Source of the DNA: Oleisolibacter albus
GTDB lineage: Bacteria; Pseudomonadota; Alphaproteobacteria; Azospirillales; Azospirillaceae
Length of the DNA: 64,000 nt
Assembly: GCF_003336875.1 (NCBI RefSeq)
Contig: NZ_QGNJ01000011.1
Coordinates: forward strand, 1 to 64,000
Direction: 5' to 3'
The notes under the pieces were generated by a model. That model made no database searches, had not been told where the DNA came from, and was given only the letters and a program-made list of their open reading frames with translations. The position numbers and the translations under genes were made by a program. Shown here piece by piece: positions 17,733 to 64,000 of this stretch (position 1 is the stretch's first letter; the number at the start of each line of letters is the position of its first letter).

Positions 17733-17808
17733 TGCTGCCAGGCCCCGGTTCCGTCCGGGGCCGGAGAATGCTACCACCGGCAGGACGGCGCAGGGACGAG
17801 AGGATGGC

Positions 17809-47684: not shown

Positions 47685-48032
47685 ATGTCCATGTCCGTGC
47701 GCACCGCCGCCCGACCCGTTCCGGGTACCGCCGCCCCGCAGAAGGCCGCCCTGGCCGGCCTGCTTCTGTCGGTCCTGTGTCTTTCCGCGGCGCCAGCCCT
47801 GGCCCAGCAGCCGGCGGCCAAGGCCGATATTCCCAAGGCGGTGGCGTGCCAGACCCTGGTGGCCCAGTTCAACGACGCCATCGGCCCCAGCAAGGCCGCC
47901 GACGACGCCAAGAAGGCGGCCCGCGACCTGCTGGCCGCCGGCAACAAGGCCTGCAACGAGAAGAACTACGATGCCGGCATCGAGCAGGTGCGCCAGGCCC
48001 TGACCACCATCGCCGTCAAGCCCGTCGCCTGA
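47685..48032 (+). CDS. Small secreted protein of unknown function
   Basis: A 115-aa protein with a clear signal peptide (L-A-G-L-L-L-S-V-L-C-L-S-A-A-P-A-L-A-Q). The mature part is helical and Ala/Lys-rich, with two cysteines (V-A-C-Q-T and K-A-C-N-E) that could form a disulfide. No family was recognised. It precedes the first moeA-like gene by only 16 bp, so it is probably cotranscribed with the formate dehydrogenase maturation genes. Confidence 0.7.
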   Translation: MSMSVRTAARPVPGTAAPQKAALAGLLLSVLCLSAAPALAQQPAAKADIPKAVACQTLVAQFNDAIGPSKAADDAKKAARDLLAAGNKACNEKNYDAGIEQVRQALTTIAVKPVA

Positions 48033-48048
48033 CCCCCGGCAGGCCGCC

Positions 48049-49245
48049 ATGCAGACCCGTCCGCTCGCGGCCGCCCAGACCGCCCTCGACCAGCTGATCC
48101 GGCAGCGGCCCCTGGACCGGCCGCAGGAGCTGGAGACCGCCGCGGCCCTGGGCCGCGTGCTGGCGCGCGACGTGGCGGCCCCGCTGGCGCTGCCGCCGGC
48201 GGCGCGGGCCGCGGTGGACGGTTTCGCCCTGCGGGCGGAGGACAGTGTCGGCGCCAGCGCCTACAACCCGGCCACCCTGACATTGCAGATGCCGGACATG
48301 GCCTGCCTGCCCGGCACGGTCCTGCCCGTCACCGCGGGCTGGCCCCTGCCGGCGGGGGCCGACGCCGTGCTGCCGCTGCATCTGGCCCAGCTGGCCGGGG
48401 GCGTGCTGGAGGTGCTGGCCAATCTGGCCGCCGGCGACGGGGTGGAGCGGCCGGGACAGGATGTGGCGGCGGGCGCCGTCGTGCTGGAGGCCGGCCGGCG
48501 GCTGCGCAGCATGGATCTGACGCTGGCCACGGCGCTGGGCCTGTCCAGCCTGCCCGTGCGGCCGCAGCCGCGGGTGCGCCTGATCTCCGCCAGCCGGCAT
48601 CTGGTCGCCGCCGGCCCGGCGGCGCTGCCGGACAGTGTCGATGCGGCGGGGCTGCTCTATCCCGGCCTGATCGCCCGCGACGGCGGCGTGCTGGAGCGCC
48701 ATGTGCGGCCGGCGGGGGCGGGACAGCCGGTGGACCTGCGGGCGGCGCTGACCGATCCCGGTGCCGACCTGATCCTGGTCTGCGGCGGGGCCAGCCCCGG
48801 CTCGCTGGACCGGTCAGCCATCCTGCTAGCCGGGGTGGGGGAGCTGGACTGGCAGGGTGTGGCCCTGCGGCCCGGCGAACTGGCCGGGGCCGGCCATGTG
48901 GACGGGGTGCCGGTCCTGCTGCTGCCGGGCAGCCCGGCGGCGGGCTTGACCGCCTATGAGCTGCTGGCCGGGCGGGCCGTGCGCCGGCTGGCCGGGCTGG
49001 ACCCGGCCCTGCCGCACCGGCGGGTGCGCCTGCCGCTGGGCGGGCGCAAGCTGACCTCTGAGATCGGGGTGGTGGAGCTGGTGCCGGTGCGGCTGGCCGG
49101 ACAGTCGGTGCTGCCGCTGCCGCTGGGCTTCGGGCTGGGTACGCTGGTCCAGGCCGACGGCTTCGTGCTGGTGCCGGCGGCGGCGGAGGGCTATGCCCCC
49201 GGCACCCCGGTGGAGGTTCATCTGTTCGATGCCGCGGATCTGTGA
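48049..49245 (+). CDS. MoeA-like molybdopterin protein, probably degenerate
   Basis: A 398-aa protein with the overall MoeA/GlnE-type fold: the N-terminal part has D-G-F-A-L-R-A-E-D and the C-terminal part Q-A-D-G-F-V-L-V-P. In active MoeA the middle domain reads S-T-G-D-E; here the corresponding text is S-A-S-R-H, and K-P-G-K-P is replaced by R-P-G-E-L. This suggests loss of molybdate-insertase activity, or a changed role. It starts 16 bp after the secreted-protein gene and is followed by a second MoeA. The pair serves a locus encoding a molybdenum formate dehydrogenase. Confidence 0.75.
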   Translation: MQTRPLAAAQTALDQLIRQRPLDRPQELETAAALGRVLARDVAAPLALPPAARAAVDGFALRAEDSVGASAYNPATLTLQMPDMACLPGTVLPVTAGWPLPAGADAVLPLHLAQLAGGVLEVLANLAAGDGVERPGQDVAAGAVVLEAGRRLRSMDLTLATALGLSSLPVRPQPRVRLISASRHLVAAGPAALPDSVDAAGLLYPGLIARDGGVLERHVRPAGAGQPVDLRAALTDPGADLILVCGGASPGSLDRSAILLAGVGELDWQGVALRPGELAGAGHVDGVPVLLLPGSPAAGLTAYELLAGRAVRRLAGLDPALPHRRVRLPLGGRKLTSEIGVVELVPVRLAGQSVLPLPLGFGLGTLVQADGFVLVPAAAEGYAPGTPVEVHLFDAADL

Positions 49246-49267
49246 CGCCGGCGGTGTCAGGTTGGGG

Positions 49268-51241
49268 ATGCATGTGATGTCCGAGTCCGATCCCGGCGCC
49301 TTCCTGCGCCGCGCCGCCCGGCAGGAGCAGTTCCTGGCCGTGGTCGACCGGGAGGAGGCCACGCGCCGGTTCCATGCCCATCTGGACCTGACGCCGCGGC
49401 ACGAGACAGTGGCGCTGGATGCCGCCCTGGACCGGGTGCTGGCGGCGGATGTGCGGGCCGGCGTGGACGTGCCGCTGTTCGACCGTTCGGGCGTGGACGG
49501 CTTCGCCCTGCGCGCCGCCGATACGGCCACGGCTTCGGACACAGCACCGGTGCGGCTGCGCCTGAACCCGGAGGTGCTGGCCTGCGGTGTGGCGCCCACG
49601 GGCGCGGTGGCCGCCGGCACGGCCACGGTCATCGCCACCGGCGGCATGGTCCCGCGCGGGGCCGACGCCGTGGTCATGGTCGAGCACACCGATCTGGAGG
49701 AGGCGGCGGACGGGCTGTGGCTGCATCTGCGCCGGGCGGCGGCACCGGGCCAGTTCATCGCGTCCGCCGGCAGCGACATCGGCCGGGGCGAGACGGTGCT
49801 GCGCCGGGGACAGCGGCTGACCAGCCGCGAGATCGGCGTGCTGGCCGCCATCGGCCAGGCGGAGGTGACGGCGGTGCGGCGGCCCCGGGTCGCCATCCTG
49901 TCCACCGGCGACGAGATCGTGGCGCCGGGCCAGCCGATCCGGCCGGGCGCCGTCTATGACAGCAATGCCGCCATCCTGGCCGCCGCCGTGCGCGAGGCCG
50001 GGGGCGAGCCGGTGCCGCTGGGCATCGCCGGCGACGACGAGACGGTGCTGGCGGCCAGGGTGCGGCAGGGGCTGGACGGCGCCGATCTGCTGCTGCTGTC
50101 CGGCGGCACCTCGAAGGGGGCGGGCGATGTCAGCCACCGCATCATCGCCGGGCTGGGGCCGCCCGGCATCCTGGTGCATGGCGTGGCCATCAAGCCGGGC
50201 AAGCCGGTCTGTCTGGCCGTGGTCGAGGGCAAGCCGCTGGTGCTGCTGCCGGGATTCCCCACCAGCGCCATTTTCACCTTCCATGAATTCGTGGCCCCGG
50301 TGATCCGGGCCCTGGCCGGGCTGCCGGCCGCGGCGGCGGAGACGGTGGAGGCGGTGCTGCCGCTGCGCCTGCCGTCGGAGCGGGGCCGCACCGAATATGT
50401 CATGGCCGGGCTGGTGCGGACCGAGGCGGGGCTGGCCGCCTATCCCCTGGCCAAGGGGTCGGGCGCCGTCACCGGCTTCGCCCAGGCCGACGGCTTCTTC
50501 GCCGTGCCGGCGCAGACCGAGATGGTGGAGGCCGGGACACGGGTCACGGTCCAGCTGATCGGCCATGACCTGAAGCCGGCCGATCTGGTCATCATCGGCA
50601 GCCATTGCGTCGGGCTGGACCTGCTGCTGGGGGCGCTGCCCGGCCTGTCGGTGCGGCTGCTGGCCGTGGGCAGCATGGGCGGGCTGGCCGCGGCCCGGCG
50701 CGGCGAGTGCGATCTGGCCCCGATCCACCTGATGGACCCGCAGAGCGGCCGCTACAATGTCGATTTCCTGGCGCCGGGGCTGGAGCTGGTGCGCGGCTAC
50801 GGCCGGCGGCAGGGGCTGGTGTTCCGGCCCGGCGATCCCCGTTTCGCCGGCCAGGAGGATGCGGCGGCGGCGGTGCGGGCGGCGCTGGCCGATCCCGACT
50901 GCCTGATGGTCAACCGCAATGCCGGGGCCGGCACGCGCATCCTGCTGGACCGGCTGCTGGCCGGGGTGCGGCCGCCGGGCTACTGGAACCAGGCCCGCTC
51001 CCACAATGCCGTGGCCGCCGCCGTGGCCCAGGACCGCGCCGACTGGGGCATGGCCATCGACACGGTGGCCCGCGACTATGGGCTGGGCTTCCTGCCGGTG
51101 CAGGACGAGCAGTACGACTTCGTGGTGCCGCAGGCGCGGCGCGACAGGCCGGCGGTGCAACGGTTCCTGTCGTTGCTGACCGAAGCCGGCATGCGCGGCC
51201 GTCTGGCCGCGCTGGGCTTCAAACCGGGAGAGCCGACATGA
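49268..51241 (+). CDS. MoeA fused to a periplasmic-binding-protein-like domain
   Basis: A protein of about 657 aa. The first 400 residues are a full MoeA with D-G-F-A-L, S-T-G-D-E-I-V, S-G-G-T-S-K-G-A-G-D and K-P-G-K-P, the molybdenum insertase of molybdopterin cofactor synthesis. The last 230 residues form a PBP-like domain of the LysR/ModA type (G-S-H-C-V-G-L-D-L-L, then N-R-N-A-G-A-G-T-R-I). Such fusions occur in archaea and bacteria; the extra domain may bind molybdate or tungstate. The ATG at 49277 is an alternative start. It overlaps the next small gene by ATGA. Confidence 0.88.
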   Translation: MHVMSESDPGAFLRRAARQEQFLAVVDREEATRRFHAHLDLTPRHETVALDAALDRVLAADVRAGVDVPLFDRSGVDGFALRAADTATASDTAPVRLRLNPEVLACGVAPTGAVAAGTATVIATGGMVPRGADAVVMVEHTDLEEAADGLWLHLRRAAAPGQFIASAGSDIGRGETVLRRGQRLTSREIGVLAAIGQAEVTAVRRPRVAILSTGDEIVAPGQPIRPGAVYDSNAAILAAAVREAGGEPVPLGIAGDDETVLAARVRQGLDGADLLLLSGGTSKGAGDVSHRIIAGLGPPGILVHGVAIKPGKPVCLAVVEGKPLVLLPGFPTSAIFTFHEFVAPVIRALAGLPAAAAETVEAVLPLRLPSERGRTEYVMAGLVRTEAGLAAYPLAKGSGAVTGFAQADGFFAVPAQTEMVEAGTRVTVQLIGHDLKPADLVIIGSHCVGLDLLLGALPGLSVRLLAVGSMGGLAAARRGECDLAPIHLMDPQSGRYNVDFLAPGLELVRGYGRRQGLVFRPGDPRFAGQEDAAAAVRAALADPDCLMVNRNAGAGTRILLDRLLAGVRPPGYWNQARSHNAVAAAVAQDRADWGMAIDTVARDYGLGFLPVQDEQYDFVVPQARRDRPAVQRFLSLLTEAGMRGRLAALGFKPGEPT

Positions 51242-51444
51242 ACCAGGATGTCTTCAACATCGAGCTGCGCAAATTCCTGAAACAGGTGGGCGTGACCAGC
51301 CAGCGCGCCATCGAGCAGGCCGTGGCCCAGGCCCTGGCCGAGGGGCGCCTGAGCGGGAGCGAGACGCTGAAGGCCCGGATGGTGCTGACGGTGGAGGCGG
51401 CCGGCCTGACCCATGAGGTGGTGGACGAGATTGCGCTGGACTAG
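51238..51444 (+). CDS. DUF6494 small protein
   Basis: A 68-aa helical protein starting M-N-Q-D-V-F-N-I-E-L-R-K-F-L-K-Q-V-G-V-T-S. This fits the DUF6494 family, found near formate dehydrogenase genes. No catalytic motif is seen; it may be a structural accessory. Its start overlaps the MoeA stop (ATGA), and its last 32 bases overlap the start of the WD40-cytochrome gene. Confidence 0.75.
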   Translation: MNQDVFNIELRKFLKQVGVTSQRAIEQAVAQALAEGRLSGSETLKARMVLTVEAAGLTHEVVDEIALD

Positions 51445-52762
51445 GCGGCGTCCTCTCGCGGCCGTCCTGGCGGCGGCGCTGGCGCTGCTGGCGGGGCCGG
51501 CGGCGGCGGAATTCGTCGGCCATGGCGGGCCGGTGCGCGGCCTGGCCCTGACCCCGGACGGCCACACGCTGCTGAGCGCCAGCTTCGACTATTCGGTGAT
51601 CCGCTGGAACCTGGAGACCGGGGCGGCCGAGGCCGTGCTCTATGGCCATGACGCGGCGGTCAACGCCGTGGCGCCGGTGCCGGGCGGGTTCGTCAGCGCC
51701 AGCGACGATGGCAGCCTGGCCCTGTGGTCCTTCGACCGGGCCACGCCGGTCCGGCGGCTGACCGGGCATGCCGGCCGGGTGGTGGCGCTGGCGGTGTCGC
51801 CGGACGGCCGCCGCGCGGCCTCGGCCGCCTGGGACCGGAGCGTGCGGCTGTGGGACCTGGAGACGGGGGCGGCGATCCGCACGCTGGAGGGGCACCGCGG
51901 GCCGGTCGATGCCGTGGCCTTCACCCCCGACGGCACCCTGCTGGCCAGCGCCGGGGCCGACGGGACCGTGCGGCTGTGGCGCGTGGCAGACGGAACCGCA
52001 CTGGCGACCCTGGCCGGCAGCGGCACCGCCATCCATGCGCTGGCCCTGTCGCCGGACGGGACGAGGCTGGCCGCCGCCGGGGCGGACGGTGCCGTGCGGA
52101 TCTGGCCGCTGCCGGGGGGCCGGGCGGCCGCACCGGGACCGGAGACCGGGCCGGAGACGGTGCTGACGGCCCCGGTGCCGGGGCCGCTGCTGGCGCTGGC
52201 CTGGTCCGGCCCGCATCTGGCCGCCACCGGCATCGACGGGGCGGTGACGGTGTGGCAGGGACAGGCGGTGCGCTGGCGCCTGGGCGGCGACCGCGGACCG
52301 CTGTGGGCCGTGGCCTTCTCCGCCGATGGCGGCACGGTGCTGGCCGGCGGCACTGACCGCATGATCCGGCAATGGAGCCTGGAGACGGGGCGGGAACGCG
52401 ATGCGCCGGTGGCCGTGCGCGCCCTGCCGGCCGAGGCCGGACTGCCCGCAGACCCGGTGGGGGAGCGGCTGTGGAAGCGCTGTTCCGCCTGCCATACGCT
52501 GACACCGGACGGGGGCAACCGGGCGGGGCCGACGCTGTACGGCGTCATCGGTCGGCCCATGGGCGCCGTTCCCGGCTACCCTTATTCCCCGGCCTTCCGC
52601 AGCGGCCACATCGTCTGGACCGAGGCGGCCATCGACGATCTGTTCGCCCGCGGCCCCGACACGGTCACCCCCGGCACCAAGATGCCGGTGCAGACCATCC
52701 CCGACCCGGCCGAGCGGGCGGCCCTGATCGCCTTCATCAAGCGGGCCGGGGCGGGCCGGTGA
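51413..52762 (+). CDS. Exported WD40-repeat cytochrome c fusion
   Basis: A 449-aa protein. A twin-Arg-like basic N-terminus leads into a signal peptide (L-A-A-V-L-A-A-A-L-A-L-L-A-G-P-A-A-A). About seven WD40 blades follow (repeats such as V-R-L-W-D-L-E-T-G-A-A and G-H-x-G-x-V), then a class I cytochrome c domain with heme site C-S-A-C-H near residue 360 and a likely axial Met in T-K-M-P-V. It would carry electrons in the periplasm while docking through the propeller. Its position before the bicarbonate transporter and near the formate dehydrogenase suggests an electron acceptor for formate oxidation. Confidence 0.85.
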   Translation: MRWWTRLRWTRRRPLAAVLAAALALLAGPAAAEFVGHGGPVRGLALTPDGHTLLSASFDYSVIRWNLETGAAEAVLYGHDAAVNAVAPVPGGFVSASDDGSLALWSFDRATPVRRLTGHAGRVVALAVSPDGRRAASAAWDRSVRLWDLETGAAIRTLEGHRGPVDAVAFTPDGTLLASAGADGTVRLWRVADGTALATLAGSGTAIHALALSPDGTRLAAAGADGAVRIWPLPGGRAAAPGPETGPETVLTAPVPGPLLALAWSGPHLAATGIDGAVTVWQGQAVRWRLGGDRGPLWAVAFSADGGTVLAGGTDRMIRQWSLETGRERDAPVAVRALPAEAGLPADPVGERLWKRCSACHTLTPDGGNRAGPTLYGVIGRPMGAVPGYPYSPAFRSGHIVWTEAAIDDLFARGPDTVTPGTKMPVQTIPDPAERAALIAFIKRAGAGR

Positions 52763-52834
52763 CCCTGCGCACGGCTTCTGGACAAGGGGCGGCCGGTCAT
52801 GGTCAATCCTGCGCAGGTTGCAAATGGAGGACCC

Positions 52835-53797
52835 ATGGCGGGGATCGATGCGCTGCTGTCTCCGGTGATCCTGTTCTTCGTGCTGGGCGCGGCGGCGGCC
52901 TTCGCCCGCTCCGATCTGGCCATTCCCGAGGCGGTGGCGAAGGGCATCTCGCTCTATCTGATGGCGGCCATCGGCCTCAAGGGCGGGGTGCAGGTGGCGG
53001 CCAGCGGCCTGTCCACCGACATGGCCCTGGCCGCGGCGGCCGGGCTGGCGCTGAGCTGCCTGCTGCCGCTGCCGGCCTATGCCGCCCTGCGCCTGTTCGG
53101 GCGGCTGGACGGGGTCAATGCCGCCGCGGTCGCCGCCCATTACGGCTCGGTCTCCGTCGTCACCTTCGTCACCGGGGCCGAGGTGCTGACCAGCGCCGGG
53201 CATCCGCCGGCCGGCTATATGGTGGCGGTGCTGGCGCTGATGGAGACGCCGGCCATCATCGTCGGCCTGATGCTGGCCCGCCGCGCCGCCCGGGTCGAGG
53301 CGCAGCCCAAGGGCGCCCTGCTGCATGAGACGCTGCTGAACGGCTCGGTCGTGCTGCTGACCGGCAGTTTCGTGATCGGGCTGGTGGCCGGCAAGCCCGG
53401 CTTTGCCCCCATCGCGCCGGTGTTCGAGACGGCCTTCCGCGGCGTCCTTTGCCTGTTCCTGCTGGATATGGGGCTGGTGGCCGCCCGCCGCCTGCGCGAG
53501 GCGCGGGCGCTGACGGCGCGGCTGGCGCTGCTGGGGCTGCTGTTCCCGCTGGTCCATGGCAGCATCGGCGTGCTGCTGGGCAGCGCGCTGGGGCTGGAGG
53601 CGGGATCGGCGGCGGCGCTGGGCATCCTGGCGGCCAGCGCCTCCTACATCGCCGTGCCGGCGGCCATGCGCCTGGCCCTTCCCCAGGCCGATCCGGGGCT
53701 TTATCTTGCCATGTCCCTGGCGGTGACCTTCCCCTTCAACATCACGGTGGGGCTCCCGCTCTACACCGCCCTTGCCCTGCGGATGGCCAGCCCATGA
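52835..53797 (+). CDS. SbtA-like sodium-dependent bicarbonate transporter
   Basis: A 320-aa membrane protein with about ten helices. The start D-A-L-L-S-P-V-I-L-F-F-V-L-G, the helix A-H-Y-G-S-V-S-V-V-T-F, and the later A-A-S-A-S-Y-I-A-V-P-A-A-M are characteristic of SbtA, the Na+-bicarbonate symporter described in cyanobacteria. GGAGGA precedes the ATG at 52835. Its stop overlaps the next gene (ATGA). In a formate dehydrogenase locus it could import, or balance, bicarbonate made from formate; direction is inference. Confidence 0.88.
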   Translation: MAGIDALLSPVILFFVLGAAAAFARSDLAIPEAVAKGISLYLMAAIGLKGGVQVAASGLSTDMALAAAAGLALSCLLPLPAYAALRLFGRLDGVNAAAVAAHYGSVSVVTFVTGAEVLTSAGHPPAGYMVAVLALMETPAIIVGLMLARRAARVEAQPKGALLHETLLNGSVVLLTGSFVIGLVAGKPGFAPIAPVFETAFRGVLCLFLLDMGLVAARRLREARALTARLALLGLLFPLVHGSIGVLLGSALGLEAGSAAALGILAASASYIAVPAAMRLALPQADPGLYLAMSLAVTFPFNITVGLPLYTALALRMASP

Positions 53798-54105
53798 CCG
53801 GAACCGTTCCCCGCCGCAAGATCGAAGTGCTGGTGGATGCGCCGCTGCTGCCGCGCCTGACCGCCCTGGCCGCGGCGGCCGGCGTGACCAGCTACACCCT
53901 GTTCCCCGCCCTGGGCGGCAGCGGTGCCGGCGGGCGCTGGAGCGAGGATCAGGTGACCGGCGCCCAGTCGAAGCTGCTGTTCATGGCGCTGATGGCCGAG
54001 GAAAAGGCCCAGACCCTGGTCGCCGCCCTGGAGCCGCTGCTGGAAAGCCACGGGCTGCTGCTGATGAGCAGCCGGGTCGAGGTGGTGCGCGGCGGCAAGT
54101 TCTGA
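53794..54105 (+). CDS. SbtB-like PII-family regulator
   Basis: A 103-aa PII-like protein. The ferredoxin-like order is visible: K-I-E-V-L-V-D (strand 1), helix L-T-A-L-A-A-A-A, V-T-S-Y-T-L-F (strand 2), a T-loop-like G-G-S-G-A-G-G-R-W-S-E-D, then S-K-L-L-F-M-A-L and a C-terminal strand S-S-R-V-E-V-V-R-G. In cyanobacteria SbtB binds adenyl nucleotides and controls SbtA. The ATGA overlap with sbtA supports that pairing. The C-terminal redox CGPxGC loop of cyanobacterial SbtB is absent. Confidence 0.8.
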   Translation: MTGTVPRRKIEVLVDAPLLPRLTALAAAAGVTSYTLFPALGGSGAGGRWSEDQVTGAQSKLLFMALMAEEKAQTLVAALEPLLESHGLLLMSSRVEVVRGGKF

Positions 54106-54133
54106 GCGGGGGCTTGCCGCCGCACTGGCCCGG

Positions 54134-56152
54134 TCAGGCCTTGTAATCCTCCGCTGTGCGCGGGCGGGGGCGGTCCGGGCCGGCATAGGGATCGATGCTG
54201 CTGCTGGCCTGGGCGACGACGCGGCAGTCCGCGCACATGCGCACGCGGTCGATGGGATTGTCGCCCAGCCCGGCGCTGGCGCCGGCATACATCCAGTGCT
54301 TGCCCTGGAGCTTGGACACGATCTTCTCCACCGTGGCCCTGGTGCCGAAGGGCTTGCCGCAGCTGATGCAGTGGTACGGCTCCTCCTCCTTCACCGGCAC
54401 GGCGCTGCGGGCGGTCCCGGTGAAATCCAGCTGCGGGCGCAGGCTGATGACCTTCTCCGGGCAGGTGGCCTTGCACAGGCCGCACTGCACGCAGGCATCC
54501 TGGGTGAAGGCCAGCTGCGGGCGCTCGGGATTGTCGGACAGGGCGCCGGTGGGGCAGACCTGGACACAGGCCAGGCACAGGGTGCAGCCATCGACGTTGA
54601 TGTCCAGCGTGCCGAAGGGGGCGCCCGGCGGCAGCGGCAGCACCTCCACCGGGGCAGGCGCCGCGGCGTGCAGCTGGCGCAGGCTGAGCTTCATCAGGGC
54701 GCGCTTGTCGCCCATAGGCAGGAAGGGACGGGCGCTGCCGCCCGCCCGTGCCGGCAGGGCCGCCAGCAGGCCGGCCAGCGCGTCGGGATCGTCGGCCTCC
54801 AGCATGCCGCAGCGGCCGGAGCCGTAGCCCAGCCCGCTGGCCACCGTCTCCGCCAGGCCCAGGACTTTGGCCGTGGCCAGCATGTCGTCGCGCGGGCGGG
54901 TGGAGGCCAGCAGCCGCACCTCGGCGGCGCCATAGGCCAGGGCGGCGGCGAAGAACTCGATGCCCAGCTGGGTCAGCGCGTTGACGGCGACGGGGATGAC
55001 CCGGGCCGGCAGCCCGTCGCCCCAGCGCGACAGCAGGTCGATCAGCGGCGCGCCATGCTCGGCCTCATGCACCAGCAGCACGGCATCGCGGCCGCCGGCG
55101 GTGTGGTAGGTCTCCAGCAGGGTGCGCAGCCGCTCCAGCAGCGTGTCGGCCGGCGGCAGCGCGTAGCTGGCGGCGCCGGTGGGGCAGACGGCATGGCAGC
55201 TGCCGCAGCCGGCGCAGATGAACGGGTCCAGCGCCACATGGTCGCCGTCGGGGGTGATGGCACCGGTGGGGCAGACCTCCAGGCAGCGGGTGCAGCCCGT
55301 GCGCCGGTTGCGGCCATGGGCGCAGAGGTCGGCGCGGTAATCCACATATTTCGGCTTGTCGAACTGGCCGACCAGATCGGCGGCCCTGGCCAGCAGGGCC
55401 TGCACCGCGCCGGGGCTGCCGGGGTCGGCGCGCAGATAGCCGTCACGCTTGTGCGCGGCGGAGAACAGCGGCGTGCCGCCGGTCAGGTCGATGATGAGGT
55501 CGCAGCGGCTGCTGGCCCCGTCGCGGGACGGGCCGAAGGCCAGCGCCCGGCGGGAGGAGGGGGCGGGCAGGGCATAATCGTCGACGATGATCTCAAAGGC
55601 GCCGAGATGGCCCTTGGCGATGCGGATATGGCCCTTCAGCACGGGAAAGTCGGTGCTGGCGGGCGGCAGCACTGCGCCCGGCCGGTCCAGCAGCACGGTG
55701 ACATCCAGCCGGTCGGCCAGCTGGCGCGCGGCCTCGATCGCCGTCTCGTCGCGGCCATAGACCAGGGCCACGCCCTCCGACGTCAGGCCGACCAGGGGCG
55801 TCTCCGGCCGGGTCAGCGTCGCCTCCGCCAGCAAAGCGGCGATCTTCGGCGTGGCCGCCGCGGCCTCGGCCGACCAGCCGGCGCGCTCGCGGATATTGAC
55901 CAGGGTCAGCGCGTCCGGGTCGCCGCCGACCTCCTCCACCGTCTCCTCGAACACGGCGCGTTCCTGGGTGCAGGCGATCAGCAGCGGGCCGGCGGTCCCC
56001 GCCGCCCGGGCCAGCCGGTCCCGCTCGCCGCGGCAGAGCTGGTGGGAAAGGGTGGGGGCGGCCTGTCCGCAGGCCTTGCCCAGGGCGGCGGCATCCAGGG
56101 GCATGGTGCCTTCACAGGAGCACAGCAGCACCGTGCGGCCGTTCAACTTCAT
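54134..56152 (-). CDS. Large 4Fe-4S polyferredoxin-like protein
   Basis: A 672-aa protein with four ferredoxin-type clusters arranged in two pairs: C-x2-C-x3-C-P (C-T-R-C-L-E-V-C-P and C-A-G-C-G-S-C-H-A-V-C-P) near residues 285-325, and C-T-L-C-L-A-C-V-Q-V-C-P with C-V-Q-C-G-L-C-K-A-T-C-P near 520-570. The C-terminus has C-I-S-C-G-K-P-F-G and a later C-A-D-C, perhaps a zinc or further cluster. The N-terminus L-L-C-S-C-E-G-T resembles an HdrA-like start. It may pass electrons from formate dehydrogenase to quinone or ferredoxin. It is divergent from the ligase-like gene. Confidence 0.87.
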   Translation of the reverse strand: MKLNGRTVLLCSCEGTMPLDAAALGKACGQAAPTLSHQLCRGERDRLARAAGTAGPLLIACTQERAVFEETVEEVGGDPDALTLVNIRERAGWSAEAAAATPKIAALLAEATLTRPETPLVGLTSEGVALVYGRDETAIEAARQLADRLDVTVLLDRPGAVLPPASTDFPVLKGHIRIAKGHLGAFEIIVDDYALPAPSSRRALAFGPSRDGASSRCDLIIDLTGGTPLFSAAHKRDGYLRADPGSPGAVQALLARAADLVGQFDKPKYVDYRADLCAHGRNRRTGCTRCLEVCPTGAITPDGDHVALDPFICAGCGSCHAVCPTGAASYALPPADTLLERLRTLLETYHTAGGRDAVLLVHEAEHGAPLIDLLSRWGDGLPARVIPVAVNALTQLGIEFFAAALAYGAAEVRLLASTRPRDDMLATAKVLGLAETVASGLGYGSGRCGMLEADDPDALAGLLAALPARAGGSARPFLPMGDKRALMKLSLRQLHAAAPAPVEVLPLPPGAPFGTLDINVDGCTLCLACVQVCPTGALSDNPERPQLAFTQDACVQCGLCKATCPEKVISLRPQLDFTGTARSAVPVKEEEPYHCISCGKPFGTRATVEKIVSKLQGKHWMYAGASAGLGDNPIDRVRMCADCRVVAQASSSIDPYAGPDRPRPRTAEDYKA

Positions 56153-56221
56153 GATGGGCGCGTCCCTTTGCTTCCACGTCGGTGCAGAGGCCCGGCGCCG
56201 GTCCGGCCAGGTCCCTTGTCT

Positions 56222-56238
56222 TGTTCACCTAGAGAACA
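56222..56238. promoter_or_regulatory. Inverted repeat in the divergent formate-locus promoter
   Basis: TGTTC-ACCTAGA-GAACA is a 17-bp hyphenated palindrome in the 123-bp region between the polyferredoxin and the ligase-like gene, 38 bp before the latter's start. It could be a shared operator; regulator unknown. Confidence 0.45.
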
Positions 56239-56275
56239 GATATTGCGCCGGCCGACAATTGGGAGGATGGCATAA

Positions 56276-57010
56276 ATGAATAGACTGCCCGCCGCATCGC
56301 CGGTGGTCAGCCTTCCGCCGCCGTTCCAGCCGGTGTGCTGCGGCCCGTCGGATGCGCTGCTGCGGGCCGTGGCCGAAGCTGAGGCCGAAGCCGGGGCCGC
56401 CACCCTGGTCTACGGCACCCGCCCCGACCGGTTCGACGTGGCTGTGGTGTTCGAGCCGGAGCTGCCGCTGGCCCGCGCCCGCGGCATCGGGCCGGTGATG
56501 ATGCTGGCCATGGCCGATGCGCTGAGCACGCTGGGACCGCCGCAGAAGGACCCGCAATTCGACTGGCCCGACCGCATCCTGGTGGACGGGGCGCTGGTGG
56601 GCGGCGTGGCCGTGACCGCCGCCGCCCTGAGCACGGAGGCGGCGGTGCCGGACTGGCTGGTGGCCGGGGTGCAGCTGCGCCTGTCCTTTCCGGCCGACCT
56701 GACCGATCCCGGCCGCACGCCGGAGCGCACGGCCCTGTATGAGGAGGGATTCGGCGCGGTGGAGCCGCTGCCGCTGCTGGAATCCTTCAGCCGCCACCTG
56801 CTGCTGCATGTCAGCCGCTTCCTGGAGGAGGGGTTCGAGCCGCTGGCGCAGGACTGGCTGACGCGGCTGACGCCGGCCCGGACCCGGGGGTCCGTGCGCC
56901 ACGGGCTGGACCCGCTCACGGGCGATCTGCTGCTGCTGGAGCCGGGATCGGCCAGGCCCCGGCGGGAGAGCCTGGCGGCGGCCCAGGCCCGCCCGAGCTG
57001 GACGCTCTGA
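56276..57010 (+). CDS. Biotin/lipoate protein ligase-like protein without the usual lysine
   Basis: A 244-aa protein related to the BPL/LplA fold, with D-W-P-D-R-I-L-V-D-G-A-L-V-G-G-V at about residues 95-110, aligning with K-W-P-N-D-L and the lysine-bearing strand of BirA. The position of the catalytic lysine (R-K-L-A-G in BirA) reads G-A-L-V-G here, so normal adenylate chemistry is doubtful. GGAGG precedes the ATG. Relatives occur in formate dehydrogenase loci of alphaproteobacteria; the role is unknown. The next gene starts 1 bp after its stop. Confidence 0.7.
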   Translation: MNRLPAASPVVSLPPPFQPVCCGPSDALLRAVAEAEAEAGAATLVYGTRPDRFDVAVVFEPELPLARARGIGPVMMLAMADALSTLGPPQKDPQFDWPDRILVDGALVGGVAVTAAALSTEAAVPDWLVAGVQLRLSFPADLTDPGRTPERTALYEEGFGAVEPLPLLESFSRHLLLHVSRFLEEGFEPLAQDWLTRLTPARTRGSVRHGLDPLTGDLLLLEPGSARPRRESLAAAQARPSWTL

Positions 57011-57011
57011 G

Positions 57012-57548
57012 ATGGAGGCGGCGCGCACGCTGCCCCGCACGCTGCGGCTGGACGCCTCCGACCGCTTCGTGTTCGACATGGCGGCCGAGCCGGGGGAATG
57101 GGCCGTGTCCGGCGCCTTCGCCTTCCTGGGCGGGGACCCGGCGGCGCTGACGGGCAAGCGGCGGCAGGCCTTCAGCAACGGCTTCCTGGGCCTGGACAGT
57201 CTGGGCTGGTCCACCATGGTCACCGTCGCCACGGCCACGGCGGACGAGGCGGCGGCGGCGGTGCGGGCGCTGGCCCGCCGGCTGGTCGAGGATTTCGGCT
57301 GCCCGACCGCGGAGATGGCCCGGGCGGCGGCGGCGGAGGAGGTGGCGTTCGCCGCCGAGCTGTGCCGGGAGCATCCGCCGGGCACGCTGCTGGCCGTGTC
57401 GCGGCGCGTGGAGGCGGACGGGCAGATCCGCGAGGCCTTCCGGGTGGTGCCGCCGCCCGGCGAGCGGGATCATGCCCGCATCTGGACGATTGTTCCGGAT
57501 ACGGAACAGAATGCCGCCGGCAAAGGCGGCAAGGAGGATGGGGCGTGA
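57012..57548 (+). CDS. DUF6505-like formate dehydrogenase accessory protein
   Basis: A 178-aa protein beginning M-E-A-A-R-T-L-P-R-T-L-R-L-D-A-S-D-R-F-V-F, with a helical Glu/Ala-rich centre. It fits the DUF6505 family that travels with formate dehydrogenases. No catalytic motif was seen. Its GTGA overlap with the following gene indicates coupling. Confidence 0.7.
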   Translation: MEAARTLPRTLRLDASDRFVFDMAAEPGEWAVSGAFAFLGGDPAALTGKRRQAFSNGFLGLDSLGWSTMVTVATATADEAAAAVRALARRLVEDFGCPTAEMARAAAAEEVAFAAELCREHPPGTLLAVSRRVEADGQIREAFRVVPPPGERDHARIWTIVPDTEQNAAGKGGKEDGA

Positions 57549-58567
57549 GCCGCGATTTCTGGATCAGTTCCGGCCATCATCTGCTGGACAGGGCCGACAA
57601 TGGCGGGCTGGTGGCCACGCCGGATTTCCTGCGCGCCTTCCTGGCGCGGCCGGAGATGGCCCCGGTGCCGGAGTCCGGCCCGCGGGAACGGGCGCTGCAT
57701 CAGGCGCTGCTGGCCGACCCGACCCTGCGCGTGGACGAGGCCACGCTGGCCGCCATCGAGGATGCGGACGGGCGGGAGAATTACGCGGTCTGGCTGGGTT
57801 TCCGCGACCGGCTGCTGGCCCAGCCGACGCTGGAGGCCGCCTATCTGGGGCTGATGCGCGGCGGGGTCGGCCGGGTGCCGGCCCTGTTCCTGGACCAGCT
57901 GGTGCATCTGATCCTGCGCAACATGCTGGACGGCTGCGCCGATCCGCTGCTGCTGCGCGCGGCGGAATGCCTGTTCCGGGCCCAGCGCGTGTCGATCCAG
58001 GAGGGGGGCATCCTGCTGGCCGACGAGGAGGTGGTGGAGCAGCGGGCCACCACCGGCGGCTTCGGCACTCTGGCCCAGTTGCTGGCCCAGGCCGGCACGG
58101 CGCCGCGCAGCGTCGATCTGGATGTGCTGCACGCCGAGAGCGCCGACCAGTACTGGGAGCGGTCCGACCGCTTCGACATGGTGCTGGACGTGGCCTTCAC
58201 CCGGCCCGGCCTGGACGCGCTGGCGCGGGTGCTGGAACGCTGGGTCGCCCATTTCACCGGCGTCCGCGTCTCCATCCAGCCGGTGCAGACCATCCGCGAC
58301 GCGCGCTGGGTCTGGCATGTGGGGCTGGACGGGGAGGCCAGCCGCAGCCTCAATGCCATGTGGCGGGGGGAAGACGTGCCCCAGGCCGATCTGGCGCGGG
58401 TGCTGTCGCTGTTCCGGCTGGACTTCGCCGATCCCGGCGACATGCTGGAGCGGGTGGCCGGGCGGCCGGTCTATCTGGCCATGGCCATGACCGGGGCCAG
58501 GACCCTGCGGCTGAAGCCGCAGAACCTGCTGTTGAACCTGCCGTTCCGCGAGGGCGGCGCCAATTGA
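57545..58567 (+). CDS. DUF6352 family protein
   Basis: A 340-aa protein that starts with a GTG overlapping the previous stop and reads S-R-D-F-W-I-S-S-G-H-H-L-L-D. This matches DUF6352 and suggests a soluble accessory protein. No signal peptide or metal-binding cluster is visible. It belongs to the same operon as its neighbours and probably helps assemble or insert cofactor into the formate dehydrogenase. Confidence 0.75.
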   Translation: MSRDFWISSGHHLLDRADNGGLVATPDFLRAFLARPEMAPVPESGPRERALHQALLADPTLRVDEATLAAIEDADGRENYAVWLGFRDRLLAQPTLEAAYLGLMRGGVGRVPALFLDQLVHLILRNMLDGCADPLLLRAAECLFRAQRVSIQEGGILLADEEVVEQRATTGGFGTLAQLLAQAGTAPRSVDLDVLHAESADQYWERSDRFDMVLDVAFTRPGLDALARVLERWVAHFTGVRVSIQPVQTIRDARWVWHVGLDGEASRSLNAMWRGEDVPQADLARVLSLFRLDFADPGDMLERVAGRPVYLAMAMTGARTLRLKPQNLLLNLPFREGGAN

Positions 58568-58600
58568 GACCGGCGGCGGACCGCCGGAGGGAGAAGGCCG

Positions 58601-59113
58601 ATGGGCATGGTCGTGGAGCGCATGCCGGTGGGGGTGGTGGTGGAGCGGCGGCCCGCCGCCAGCCGCTGGGCCGACTGGGTCTGGCGCATCGCCGGCGTGC
58701 TGCCCGGATCGCCGCAGACGCCGCCCTGGACCGTGCTGTCCGAGGTGGACGGCGTGACCACCTTCTATGCCGGCACCGCCGACATCACGCTGTATTCGGC
58801 CGAGACGGAAACCTATGAGCCGGCGGTGCAGAGCCAGGCCCCGGCCGTCTATGTGGTGCTGCGCCGGGGCGAGACGCCGTCGGGGTGGGCGCTGCTGCTG
58901 GCCACGGTCGATGCCGGCGAGGCCCATGCCCATGCCGACAGCGGCGACGATCTGATGGAGGCCGTGCCGATGCCGGCGCTGGTGCGCGACTGGGTGGCCG
59001 CCTTCTTCGCCACGCACCATGTGGAGCGGCCGCGGTTCAAGCGCAAGCGCGACAAGGCCGACCCGGAAGCGTTGGCCATGGGACGGCGCCGCGGTCCCGG
59101 CGGCGACCTGTAA
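58601..59113 (+). CDS. DUF3305 family protein
   Basis: A 170-aa protein starting M-G-M-V-V-E-R-M-P-V-G-V-V-V-E-R-R. The two repeats of V-V-E-R and the acidic-basic pattern fit DUF3305, a marker of the FdnG-type formate dehydrogenase operons. GGAGGGAGAAGG precedes the start. The tail is basic (R-F-K-R-K-R-D-K). Molecular role is not known. Confidence 0.8.
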   Translation: MGMVVERMPVGVVVERRPAASRWADWVWRIAGVLPGSPQTPPWTVLSEVDGVTTFYAGTADITLYSAETETYEPAVQSQAPAVYVVLRRGETPSGWALLLATVDAGEAHAHADSGDDLMEAVPMPALVRDWVAAFFATHHVERPRFKRKRDKADPEALAMGRRRGPGGDL

Positions 59114-59128
59114 CGCCCGGAGCCGGCG

Positions 59129-59923
59129 ATGAGCGACGATGAGAGCAGCTTCCTGTCCCGCTGGTCGCGGCTGAAGCGCGACGCGCGGGCGCCCCGGCCG
59201 GCGGCACCGCCGGCACCGCCGGTGGCGGGAGTGGGGCCGGTGGCGGGCGAGGGGACGCCGGTCCAGGGCCGGGCGGCCCGGGGAACACCGGATGGGGGCG
59301 CGGCGGACGCGGCGGCGGCCGGGGCCGTGCCGGCGGCCGGTGCAGCGGCCGAGGAGAGCGTCGATCTGGACAGTCTGCCCCCCATCGACAGCCTGGGGGC
59401 CGACAGCGACTTCACCCAGTTCCTGCGCAAGGGCGTGCCGACGGCGCTGAAGAACGCCGCTCTGCGCAAGCTGTGGGCCGCCGACCCCGCCATCGCCAAT
59501 TACAGGACCTTCGCCGAGTATGACTGGGACTTCAACGCGCCCGGCTATGGCCAGCTGCTGCCCACCGACGATGTGAAGAAGGCGGTGGACGCCCTGTTCA
59601 AGACCATGGACGGGATGACGGGCGAGCGGCCCGGGGCCGAATCCGGGCCGGAGACGGCAGCCGCCGCCGGGGGGGACGATGAGCCGGCGCGCCCGTCCGC
59701 GGGACCGGCGGAGGAGACCGGGCCGGGAGAGCCGGACCTGTCCCGCCCGCAACCGCTGCCGGCGTCCGCTCCGCCCGCATCCGCTCCGGCTGTGCTGCCG
59801 CCCCTGCCGCAGTCGGTGCCGCCTGTGCCGCCGGTTCCAGCGGCCGCCCCCGTCCCGGTCGAGGCCGCTCCGCCCGGGACCCCGCCGCGCCGCCGCCGCC
59901 ATGGTGGGGCTGTGCCGCGGTGA
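59129..59923 (+). CDS. DUF3306 family protein
   Basis: A 264-aa protein that begins M-S-D-D-E-S-S-F-L-S-R-W-S-R-L-K-R, the DUF3306 start, with the conserved centre D-S-D-F-T-Q-F-L and Y-D-W-D-F-N-A-P-G-Y. The remainder is an unusually long Pro/Ala/Glu-rich tail with no fold visible. It pairs with DUF3305 in formate dehydrogenase operons. It starts 16 bp after DUF3305. Confidence 0.8.
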   Translation: MSDDESSFLSRWSRLKRDARAPRPAAPPAPPVAGVGPVAGEGTPVQGRAARGTPDGGAADAAAAGAVPAAGAAAEESVDLDSLPPIDSLGADSDFTQFLRKGVPTALKNAALRKLWAADPAIANYRTFAEYDWDFNAPGYGQLLPTDDVKKAVDALFKTMDGMTGERPGAESGPETAAAAGGDDEPARPSAGPAEETGPGEPDLSRPQPLPASAPPASAPAVLPPLPQSVPPVPPVPAAAPVPVEAAPPGTPPRRRRHGGAVPR

Positions 59924-60257
59924 TGCCGCCGGCAGCGTGTCCGCGACCGGCCGTTGACGTAGTTGCCGTTCCGTCGGAGTCCGGCCCGTTGCATCCCGTC
60001 ATTGGTGGAAACCAAAGAAAGACTTTGCAGAAACATGCAAATTTTACTGCGAGCCATTATTAACTTGGTGCGCGGCCGCGCGGTATTTTGCTGAACGAAG
60101 CATTAACCTCGAAAGCCCCTTGCCTTGACGTTTTTTGTCGCACTAACATCTTCATGATACGGGCCTGATGCCTGTCTGTTGGGCAGAACCGCTTTCGCAG
60201 ACCGGGAAGCCCGTGCTGATGTCCATTTCTGGCGATGATCGAGGGAGGCAAGGGGAC
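59924..60257 (+). promoter_or_regulatory. Intergenic region with promoter and TTTGCA dyad
   Basis: 334 bp without a supported gene; AT-rich between 60005 and 60155. It contains a dyad TTTGCA-GAAACA-TGCAAA at 60024-60041, a perfect 12-bp palindrome GCGCGGCCGCGC at 60070-60081, and a possible -35 TTGACG near 60125. A promoter for the torD-fdhA transcript is likely here. Confidence 0.4.
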
Positions 60258-60947
60258 GTGTCGGACGCGCCGGACAATCGTGCCGCGTTTGCGCGCACCG
60301 CATCGGCCGCGGCACCGGCTGCGGCACCGGCTGCTGCACCGGCGGCGCCATCGGCTGCGGCTGCCCGGCCCGTTCTTGACGAGGCCGACCTGCTGCGCGC
60401 CCGGCTCTGGTCGCTGCTGGGCGGCCTGCTGGCGGCGGCGCCCGATGCCGATCTGCTGCGCCGCCTGTCCGCCCTGTCAGGCGATGCCTCTCCTTTGGGC
60501 ATGGCGCTGAGCGAGCTGGCCCGGCGGGCCGCCACCGCCACGCCCCATGCCGCCGAGCGTGAATACCATCGGCTGTTCATCGGGGTGGCGCGCGGGGAGC
60601 TTGTCCCCTATGCCTCCTTCTATCTGACCGGCTTCCTCAACGAGAAGCCGCTGGCCCGGCTGCGCGCCGACATGGCGCGCCTGGGCATCGGCCGCGCGGA
60701 GGGATCGTCCGACCCCGAGGACCACATGGCCAGTCTGGCCGAGATGATGGCCGGGCTGATCGCCGGGGAGTTCGCGGCCGGTCTGCCGCAGCAGCGCCAG
60801 TTCTTCGACCGCCACATCGCCCCCTGGGCCGGCCGCTTCTTCGCCGATCTGGAACGGGCCGAGGGCGCCGCGCTCTATGCCCCGGTGGGGGCCATCGGGC
60901 GGCTGTTCATGGAGATCGAGGCGCAAGCCTTCGTCCTGGCGGCCTGA
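60258..60947 (+). CDS. TorD-family molybdoenzyme chaperone
   Basis: A protein of about 229 aa. An Ala/Pro-rich N-terminal stretch is followed by a helical domain with R-A-R-L-W-S-L-L-G-G-L-L-A, E-Y-H-R-L-F-I-G-V and P-Y-A-S-F-Y-L-T-G, then D-H-M-A-S-L-A-E-M-M. This is the TorD/DmsD chaperone fold that binds Tat signals of molybdoenzymes. A GTG at 60258 with GGGAGG and AAGGGGA is favoured; ATG at 60219 is the alternative. It is followed by the Tat-target protein and the formate dehydrogenase alpha chain. Confidence 0.87.
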   Translation: MSDAPDNRAAFARTASAAAPAAAPAAAPAAPSAAAARPVLDEADLLRARLWSLLGGLLAAAPDADLLRRLSALSGDASPLGMALSELARRAATATPHAAEREYHRLFIGVARGELVPYASFYLTGFLNEKPLARLRADMARLGIGRAEGSSDPEDHMASLAEMMAGLIAGEFAAGLPQQRQFFDRHIAPWAGRFFADLERAEGAALYAPVGAIGRLFMEIEAQAFVLAA

Positions 60948-61069
60948 GAGGGCGGCCAGGACGTATTCGTGTGTCAGGGCCGGCAAGGATCCGGGGTTCG
61001 GACCCGGCCGGCGCCCGCCGTTCAAAGGCCGGAACGGCCGCGGCGGGTTTTCAGGGAGAGGGTAGGACG

Positions 61070-61294
61070 ATGTCGGTCAAGAACGGTCAGGCGGACGACA
61101 CGGCCGGAGGTTCCGGGCTGGAGCGCCGCGACTTCCTGCGGGCGCTGGGCAGCACGGCCGCCGGGGCCGCCGTGGCCGCGCCGCTGCTGGCGGCCGGCCC
61201 GGCCCAGGCCAAGGAAACCGGGGCGGAGCGCACGAAGGCCCGCTATCGGGAAACCGAGCACGTCAAAGCCTATTACCGGACCAACCGGTACTGA
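61070..61294 (+). CDS. Formate dehydrogenase region Tat-target protein
   Basis: A 74-aa protein with a twin-arginine signal: L-E-R-R-D-F-L-R-A-L-G followed by a hydrophobic stretch A-A-G-A-A-V-A-A-P-L-L-A-A. The short mature part ends A-Y-Y-R-T-N-R-Y. This small Tat substrate is a known marker of such formate dehydrogenase operons. AGGGAGAGGGTAGGA lies upstream. Function is unknown, possibly an assembly helper. The formate dehydrogenase starts 19 bp downstream. Confidence 0.88.
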   Translation: MSVKNGQADDTAGGSGLERRDFLRALGSTAAGAAVAAPLLAAGPAQAKETGAERTKARYRETEHVKAYYRTNRY

Positions 61295-61313
61295 GATCGG
61301 GGAGGCACGACCC

Positions 61314-64000
61314 ATGCTGATCAAGCGCAGCGCCGCGCCGCGGCCGTCCGCGTCCCGCAGCCGTATCGCCGATGCCTTCGCCAGCGTCGCTGGCGCCCCG
61401 GTGGACCGCCGCAGCTTCCTGCGCCGGTCCGGTCTGGCGGCGGGCGGACTGGCCGCCGTCGGCACCCTGTCCCTGACCACGGTGCGCAAGGCCGAGGCCG
61501 GCCCGACCATTCCCGGCGTCCCCACCGAGATCAGGAAGAACGTCTGCACCCACTGTTCCGTGGGCTGCACCGTCACCGCCGAGGTGCAGAACGGCGTGTG
61601 GACGGGGCAGGAGCCCAGCTTCACCAGCCCGATCAATATCGGCACCCATTGCGCCAAGGGCGCCTCGGTGCGCGAGCTGGTGCATGGCGACCGCCGCCTG
61701 AAATATCCGATGAAGCTGGAAGGCGGCGAGTGGAAGCGCATCGGCTGGGACCAGGCCATCGACGAGATCGGCAGCAAGCTCACCGCCATCCGCGACGCCT
61801 CCGGCCCGGACAGCGTGTTCCTGCTGGGCTCCGCCAAGTTCACCAACGAGGCGGCCTATCTGTTCCGCAAGTTCGCGGCCTTCTGGGGCACCAATACGGT
61901 CGACCACCAGGCCCGCATCTGCCACAGCACCACCGTCGCCGGCGTGGCGAACACGTGGGGCTACGGCGCCATGACCAACAGCTACAACGATATCAACAAT
62001 TCCAAAGCCATCATGATCATGGGCGGCAACCCCGCCGAGGCGCACCCGGTGTCGCTGCAGCATGTGCTGCGCGGCAAGGAGGTGAACCGCGCCCAGATGA
62101 TCGTGGTGGACCCGCGCTTCACCCGCACGGCGGCGCACGCCACCGAATATGTGCGGCTGCGCCCCGGCTCCGACATTCCCCTGATCTGGGGCATGCTCTG
62201 GCACATCTTCGAGAATGGCTGGGAAGACAAGGAATATATCCGCCAGCGCGTTTACGGCATGGACGAGATCCGCAAGGAAGTCGGCAAATGGGCGCCGGCC
62301 GAGGTGGAGCGGGTCACGGGCGTGCCGGGTGAGCAGGTCCGGCGCATCGCCGAGATCATGGCCAAGAACAAGCCCAGCACCCTGATCTGGTGCATGGGCA
62401 TCACCCAGCACACCGTGGGCACGGCCAATGTCCGCGCCCTGTCGATCCTGCAGCTGGCGCTGGGCAATATCGGCGTGGCCGGCGGCGGCGCCAACATCTT
62501 CCGCGGCCACACCAACGTGCAGGGCGCCACCGACCTGGGCCTGGATGTCACCACGCTGCCCGCCTATTACGGGCTGGCGGAAGGGGCCTGGAAGCACTTC
62601 GCCCGCGCCTGGGAGGTTGATTACGAGTATCTGCTGAACCGCTTCGGCAAGGCGGACATGCCGCGCGATGCCAAGAAGAAGCTGATGGAGGCCAAGGGCA
62701 TCCCGACGACCCGCTGGTTCGACGGCGTGCTGAACGAGGCCAAGGACGTGGACCAGCCGGACCTGATCCGCGGCATGGTCGTCTTCGGCCATGGCGGCAA
62801 CACCGTCACCCGCATGCCCGAGGTCAAGACCGGCATCGAGAAGCTGGAGCTGCTGGTCGTGGCCGACCCGCACCCCACCACCTTCGCCGCCCTGTCCGAC
62901 CGCAGGGACGGCACCTATCTGCTGCCGATCTGCACCAATTTCGAGACGGCCGGGTCCCGCACCGCCTCCAACCGCTCGCTGCAATGGGGCGAGCAGGTGG
63001 TGAAGCCGATCTTCGAGTCCAAGGACGATTACGAGGTCCTGTACCTGCTGTCGCGCAGGCTGGGCTTCGCCGACCAGATGTTCAAGAACATCAAGGTCGA
63101 CGGCGTGCATCCCGAGCCCGAGGACATCCTGCGGGAGATCAACCGCTCCTGCTGGTCGATCGGCTATACCGGCCAGTCGCCGGAACGCCTGAAGCTGCAC
63201 ATGAAGCATCAGGCCGATTTCGACAAGATAACCCTGCTGGGCCGCGAGGGTTCCCCGGTGGCCGGGGACTATTACGGCCTGCCCTGGCCGTGCTGGGGCA
63301 CGCCGGAGCTGAAGCACCCCGGGACCCATGTGCTCTATGACACCTCCAAGCATGTCATGAAGGGCGGCGGCGCCTTCCGCGCCCGCTTCGGCGTGGAGCG
63401 CAACGGCGAGAGCCTGCTGGCCGACGGCAGCTATTCCGCCGGCTCCGAGATCGAGGACGGCTATCCCGAATTCACCTACGGCATGCTGAAGAAGCTGGGT
63501 TGGGACAGCGACCTGACGGCCGAGGAGCTGGCCGTGATCCAGCGCGTCGGCGGCGCCAGCCCCGATGGCGTGTCCTGGACCACCGACCTGTCCGGCGGCA
63601 TCCAGCGCGTGGCGCTGCTGCATGGCTGCTCGCCCATGGGCAACGCCAAGGCCCGCGCCGTGGCCTGGAACCTGCCCGACCCGATCCCGGTCCACCGCGA
63701 GCCGATCTACACCAGCCGCCCGGATCTGGTGGCCCAGTATCCGACCCGCGACGACAGCCGCGATTTCCGCGTGCTGAACATCGGCCGCACCGTGCAGACC
63801 AAGGCGGTGGAGCAGAAGCTGGCGGACAAGTTCCCCATCCTGCTGACCTCCGGCCGTCTGGTCGAATATGAGGGCGGCGGCGAGGAGACCCGGTCCAACA
63901 AGTGGCTGGCCGAGCTGCAGCAGGACATGTTCGTCGAGGTCAATGTGGACGATGCCCGGCGCCTGGGCGTCCGCGACGGCGGCATGGTCTGGGTCTATGG
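61314..64000 (+). CDS. Formate dehydrogenase alpha subunit, Tat-exported molybdenum enzyme (3' truncated by window)
   Basis: At least 895 aa of an open frame that continues past the window end. A Tat signal D-R-R-S-F-L-R-R-S-G lies near residue 32. The N-terminal cluster motif is C-T-H-C-S-V-G-C followed by a fourth Cys in H-C-A-K-G. The active-site cysteine is in A-R-I-C-H-S, so this is a cysteine rather than selenocysteine enzyme. Motifs N-T-V-D-H-Q and G-G-N-P-A-E-A-H-P follow. It oxidises formate in the periplasm with a bis-MGD cofactor, passing electrons to iron-sulfur and cytochrome partners not seen here. Confidence 0.95.
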   Translation, partial: MLIKRSAAPRPSASRSRIADAFASVAGAPVDRRSFLRRSGLAAGGLAAVGTLSLTTVRKAEAGPTIPGVPTEIRKNVCTHCSVGCTVTAEVQNGVWTGQEPSFTSPINIGTHCAKGASVRELVHGDRRLKYPMKLEGGEWKRIGWDQAIDEIGSKLTAIRDASGPDSVFLLGSAKFTNEAAYLFRKFAAFWGTNTVDHQARICHSTTVAGVANTWGYGAMTNSYNDINNSKAIMIMGGNPAEAHPVSLQHVLRGKEVNRAQMIVVDPRFTRTAAHATEYVRLRPGSDIPLIWGMLWHIFENGWEDKEYIRQRVYGMDEIRKEVGKWAPAEVERVTGVPGEQVRRIAEIMAKNKPSTLIWCMGITQHTVGTANVRALSILQLALGNIGVAGGGANIFRGHTNVQGATDLGLDVTTLPAYYGLAEGAWKHFARAWEVDYEYLLNRFGKADMPRDAKKKLMEAKGIPTTRWFDGVLNEAKDVDQPDLIRGMVVFGHGGNTVTRMPEVKTGIEKLELLVVADPHPTTFAALSDRRDGTYLLPICTNFETAGSRTASNRSLQWGEQVVKPIFESKDDYEVLYLLSRRLGFADQMFKNIKVDGVHPEPEDILREINRSCWSIGYTGQSPERLKLHMKHQADFDKITLLGREGSPVAGDYYGLPWPCWGTPELKHPGTHVLYDTSKHVMKGGGAFRARFGVERNGESLLADGSYSAGSEIEDGYPEFTYGMLKKLGWDSDLTAEELAVIQRVGGASPDGVSWTTDLSGGIQRVALLHGCSPMGNAKARAVAWNLPDPIPVHREPIYTSRPDLVAQYPTRDDSRDFRVLNIGRTVQTKAVEQKLADKFPILLTSGRLVEYEGGGEETRSNKWLAELQQDMFVEVNVDDARRLGVRDGGMVWVY

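Follow-up and report, generated by a model that had tools for sequence, protein, structure and literature searches.

A conserved formate dehydrogenase island that very probably carries a separate sbtAB cassette

Genes for an SbtA-type transporter and an SbtB-like PII protein lie among formate dehydrogenase genes in the 64,000-nucleotide stretch of DNA analyzed here (the window). Is this pair part of the formate dehydrogenase system, or a separate unit lodged within it? The initial annotation had favored the former, proposing that SbtA handles the bicarbonate arising from formate and that SbtB provides nucleotide control. The evidence presented below leads us to regard a conserved formate dehydrogenase island carrying a separate, unrelated sbtAB cassette as very probable.

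Organization of the locus

Domain searches and a reading of the window located every gene named in the initial annotation in its expected place. The genes are as follows, with supporting matches in parentheses.

47685–48032, + strand: small exported-looking protein without a Pfam family (72% over 68 aa in L143, 56% in L145)
48049–49245, + strand: divergent MoeA-like protein (MoeA_N 2e-29; same place in L143 and L151)
49268–51241, + strand: MoeA with a C-terminal PBP-like domain, MoeA-PBP (PRK14498 764 bits, over the cut-off; PBP_like 5e-51)
51238–51444, + strand: DUF6494 protein (PF20104 1.4e-30)
51413–52762, + strand: fusion of a signal peptide, a WD40 propeller and a class I cytochrome c, WD40-cytochrome c (WD40 5e-54; Cyt550 5.5e-14)
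52835–53797, ORF from 52799, + strand: SbtA, Na+/bicarbonate transporter family (PF05982, Sbt_1, 2.1e-113)
53794–54105, + strand: SbtB-like PII protein (P-II 1.8e-7; 31.9 bits, over the cut-off of 25)
54134–56152, − strand: polyferredoxin (4Fe-4S), convergent to sbtAB (Fer4 families)
56276–57010, + strand: biotin/lipoate ligase-like protein (BPL_LplA_LipB_2, PF16917 2e-55)
57012–57548, + strand: DUF6505 (PF20115 4.9e-55)
57545–58567, + strand: DUF6352 (PF19879 7.1e-78)
58601–59113, + strand: DUF3305 (PF11749 7.6e-38)
59129–59923, + strand: DUF3306 (PF11748 3.3e-23)
60168–60947, + strand: TorD/NarJ-family chaperone (PF02613 3.8e-30)
61071–61295, + strand: small Tat-signal protein of the formate dehydrogenase operon (twin-arginine-like signal in the sequence)
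61314–64000, + strand: FdhA, Tat-exported molybdopterin formate dehydrogenase (1170 bits to the solved FdhA 9vap)

The gene overlaps that had been claimed are real: 4 bp between moeA-PBP and DUF6494, 32 bp between DUF6494 and WD40-cytochrome c, and 4 bp between sbtA and sbtB. The likely start of SbtA is at 52835, where it is preceded by GGAGG; a homologue in L060 is 320 aa long. The G+C content is 73–77% across 48000–60000 and 64–72% over the remaining window. Elsewhere, ARAGORN called a tRNA-like gene with an undetermined two-base anticodon at 17678–17767, which is probably false.

The twin-arginine signal of FdhA and its catalytic Cys (motif ARICHSTT) were both read directly in the sequence. 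The fdhA gene runs off the window and ends ~250 bp beyond it. Genes for FdhB (Fe-S) and FdhC (cytochrome b; TIGR01583, over the cut-off) lie just outside and are followed by those for MobB, MoeA, MobA, FdhD, an HTH-PBP regulator-like protein and a TupA-like protein, which suggests a block for molybdenum or tungsten supply. The MobB-to-TupA-like block spans L155 7092–14267, equivalent to ~67.1–74.3 kb of contig 3 of the window's genome (G000), 3' of the formate dehydrogenase operon. The TupA-like tungstate-binding protein scored 226 bits, below its model's cut-off of 400.

The description of the ligase-like protein as a pseudoenzyme fits its sequence. Specifically, 14/14 sequences had no Lys at the position equivalent to BirA K183. 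Judged from these residues, the BPL/LplA/LipB-like protein encoded at 56276–57010 is probably a non-catalytic relative rather than a ligase.

Conservation of the formate dehydrogenase island

The island has the order MoeA-like, MoeA-PBP, DUF6494, WD40-cytochrome c, polyferredoxin (reverse strand), ligase-like, DUF6505, DUF6352, DUF3305, DUF3306, TorD and FdhA. This order was kept in G066 and G054, and largely in G055, G001 and G053 (partial), with no sbtAB inside. In two relatives, the conserved island begins with the counterpart of the small gene at 47685–48032. The DUF3305, DUF3306 and TorD-like chaperone genes upstream of fdhA keep the same order in relatives.

Co-occurrence was evaluated across the window's family, for which 82 genomes were used. 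The polyferredoxin was present in 54/54 genomes with DUF3305 and in 0/28 without it (p ~1e-22; this and every other family p value ignores shared ancestry). WD40-cytochrome c was present in 29/54 and 0/28, respectively. Its match in genus g3 is to the N-terminal part only, so the 29-genome count includes partial relatives; in genus g13, the match stands away from the cluster. Together, the order conserved across several genera and the co-occurrence bear out the earlier assignment of WD40-cytochrome c, DUF6494, polyferredoxin, MoeA-like, MoeA-PBP and ligase-like proteins to a single formate dehydrogenase island. Three of these, the polyferredoxin, DUF6494 and WD40-cytochrome c, go together with this formate dehydrogenase, which makes them candidates for roles in its maturation or electron transfer.

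The junction occupied by sbtAB

The polyferredoxin gene lies on the opposite strand to that of WD40-cytochrome c, and sbtAB sits in the convergent junction between them. In G066, of the same genus, ~90 bp separate the two genes, with no gene between. The same slot holds a short-chain dehydrogenase gene in G055, an enoyl-CoA hydratase gene in G054 and two small ORFs in G001. The content of this junction, bounded by two convergent genes, is variable. In G066, a strong palindrome (z = −5.2) occupies it (L143 6393–6484).

G066 and G055 both carry sbtAB away from the island. The G066 pair, 84%/82% identical to that of the window, is on a different contig, flanked by a NUDIX-like gene and clpB; the G055 pair is 81/70% identical. 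No recognizable gene was common to the neighbors of the closest sbtAB pairs (flanks in G066, L060, L062 and L063). Apart from those in G066, these neighbors comprise a recombinase gene (L060), a TerC-like gene (L062) and mnmA (L063); all except the recombinase, the two in G066 included, were named by eye. L060 comes from the family genome whose sbtAB ranks second in closeness to that of the window, and its recombinase gene, of the serine type (L060 7453–8382), lies ~1.6 kb ahead of sbtA. No such gene was identified at the window's sbtAB, so a mobile-element origin of sbtAB is no more than hinted at.

Linkage of sbtAB to formate dehydrogenase genes

The check set beforehand asked how often sbtAB falls within 20 kb of DUF3305/DUF3306 relative to chance; here, Sbt_1 and DUF3305 were the markers. 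Among the 82 family genomes, Sbt_1 was present in 25, DUF3305 in 54 and both in 18. The two were close in 1/18, the window's own genome, and their presence was independent (18/54 vs 7/28, p = 0.61). A class sample of 385 genomes contained 17 with both markers, which lay within 20 kb of each other in 1/17, again the window's own. Across this sample, Sbt_1 and DUF3305 were weakly associated (17 vs 11.2 expected; p = 0.046, with no correction for relatedness or genome size), and genome size could be the cause. Finally, in 198 genomes of a rhodobacterial family, ~29 carried both markers by a tally made by eye, and these were close in one, that of L122. Pooling the samples, Sbt_1 was within 20 kb of DUF3305 in 2/~62 genomes, the window counted as one; the chance expectation for the other 61 was ~0.8 links, a rough figure based on genome sizes and copy numbers.

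DUF6494 served as a positive control. In the class sample, it was within 20 kb of DUF3305 in 18/41 genomes with both. Where the two were on one contig, they were within 12 kb in 18/22 genomes. Linkage is therefore detectable in these assemblies. Many assemblies are fragmented, so some linkages could hide at contig ends, and the p values and chance expectation are rough. The proposed above-chance linkage of sbtAB to DUF3305/DUF3306 did not hold up in any of the three samples (family, class and rhodobacterial), in which sbtAB was not a regular member of this type of formate dehydrogenase island. This is the outcome that the initial annotation had named as refuting its proposal.

The linked rhodobacterial locus, L122 10034–20984, has SbtA convergent to the DUF6505 gene of a formate dehydrogenase accessory cluster that comprises DUF6505, ligase-like, DUF6494, polyferredoxin, DUF3305, DUF3306, TorD and FdhA. 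No sbtB was detected beside SbtA in L122. Conversely, a formate dehydrogenase cluster was present at 1/80 SbtA-centered loci, that of L122. We rejected L122 as independent support, as it is the sole linked case among the genomes of its family with both markers.

These data bear directly on the proposal of one system joining formate oxidation to bicarbonate handling. It draws on the adjacency and close same-strand spacing of sbtAB in the window's genome, on L122 as one further, distant genome with SbtA beside the cluster, and on the RuBisCO of the window's genome, through which the Calvin cycle could take up CO2 released from formate. However, neither linkage nor co-occurrence is conserved, the same-genus G066 has the island and sbtAB apart, and the L122 SbtA has no detected adjacent partner. 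We consider it highly improbable that SbtA/SbtB is part of the formate dehydrogenase system in this way, and nucleotide control of formate oxidation by SbtB found no support. RuBisCO was found in G000, G066, G054 and G001 and was not found in G055. Autotrophy was rejected as the reason for sbtAB since G055 carries the pair although no RuBisCO was found there; the RuBisCO pattern thus leaves the presence of sbtAB unexplained.

Adjacency had suggested a plausible metabolic story that did not survive a direct test of linkage; the main value of the result is negative. The test tells true island members from a passenger.

Properties of the sbtAB pair

The Sbt_1 domain spans the full length of SbtA (PF05982 positions 1–307 of 308). 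Residues S280 and S282, numbered from 52799, are invariant in 110/110 homologues and match Synechocystis S322 and S324, the Ser residues of the Na+ and HCO3− sites. The best solved relatives of the SbtB-like protein are PII-like proteins, SbtB7001 among them. Moreover, sbtAB is a real unit, as sbtB is directly 3' of sbtA in most of the 80 SbtA-centered loci. Because the Ser-Ala-Ser site is kept and solved PII-like relatives exist, the best reading of the pair from its sequence is a putative bicarbonate carrier with a PII-like partner.

Proposed roles of the island and the cassette

Based on the abovementioned results, the locus would consist of two parts. The first is a conserved island for a Tat-exported, membrane-anchored formate dehydrogenase, comprising FdhABC together with cofactor, chaperone and accessory genes. 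Periplasmic formate oxidation with electron transfer to the quinone pool is established for this enzyme class. FdhA would likewise oxidize formate in the periplasm, with electrons passing to the quinone pool via FdhB and FdhC. WD40-cytochrome c, the polyferredoxin and the ligase-like protein probably help in assembly or electron transfer.

The second part is a separate two-gene sbtAB cassette that appears to have inserted where the WD40-cytochrome c and polyferredoxin genes converge. On its own, SbtA/SbtB is predicted from family membership and conserved residues to be a PII-regulated, Na+-dependent bicarbonate carrier. In the window, sbtA lies on the same strand as WD40-cytochrome c and starts 36–72 bp past the stop of that gene, and no terminator-like site was found between the two; co-transcription is therefore possible. 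Thus, transcription of the WD40-cytochrome c unit may extend into sbtAB, yet the cassette would be no evolved part of formate oxidation.

Comparison with known systems

In its passages on DUF3305/DUF3306, PMC4464133 lists an fdh tat gene with these two in chaperone-linked fdhGHI operons. The window's island shares with the operons described there the genes for the chaperone, DUF3305, DUF3306, the Tat peptide and formate dehydrogenase subunits. It extends beyond what those passages describe in having MoeA-like, MoeA-PBP, DUF6494 and WD40-cytochrome c genes. A literature search found no paper that connects WD40 and cytochrome c with periplasmic formate dehydrogenase. Among the literature passages retrieved on both SbtA and formate dehydrogenase, none reported genomic linkage between them.

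According to PMC12093963, the point mutation A269T in SO_3758, an Sbt-like transporter of Shewanella oneidensis, leads to formate tolerance, and the wild-type SO_3758 confers such tolerance in Zymomonas. The Ser-Ala-Ser-Tyr-Ile site stated there for SO_3758 has the same Ser-Ala-Ser residues as the window SbtA (S280-A281-S282). SO_3758 is linked to formate by tolerance mutants only, and its likeness to the window SbtA is one of stated residues. Because this related transporter affects formate tolerance, some Sbt_1 proteins, the window SbtA included, may by analogy move formate. The tolerance phenotypes and the shared site would suit a recent recruitment, in which sbtAB moved in by chance, now shares a transcript with moeA-PBP, DUF6494 and WD40-cytochrome c and protects against formate by carrying formate or bicarbonate/formate. 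Against this, the Ser-x-Ser site is kept in all of the homologues noted above, most without formate dehydrogenase genes found nearby; being general, it is no special sign for the window copy. We regard such recruitment as unlikely. It is equally doubtful that sbtAB, captured into the formate dehydrogenase transcription unit, would couple the transport of formate or bicarbonate to formate oxidation, with PII-like control.

The preferred reading, a separate bicarbonate-type cassette, invites comparison with cyanobacterial SbtA/SbtB. The window SbtA is distant from cyanobacterial Slr1512 (82 bits) and has Ala between the two serines, whereas cyanobacterial SbtA has Ser. Cyanobacterial SbtB has a Cys-rich C-terminal end, which the window's SbtB-like protein apparently lacks. 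The two systems share the Sbt_1 family, the Ser-x-Ser site and a PII-like gene directly behind sbtA with an overlapping start.
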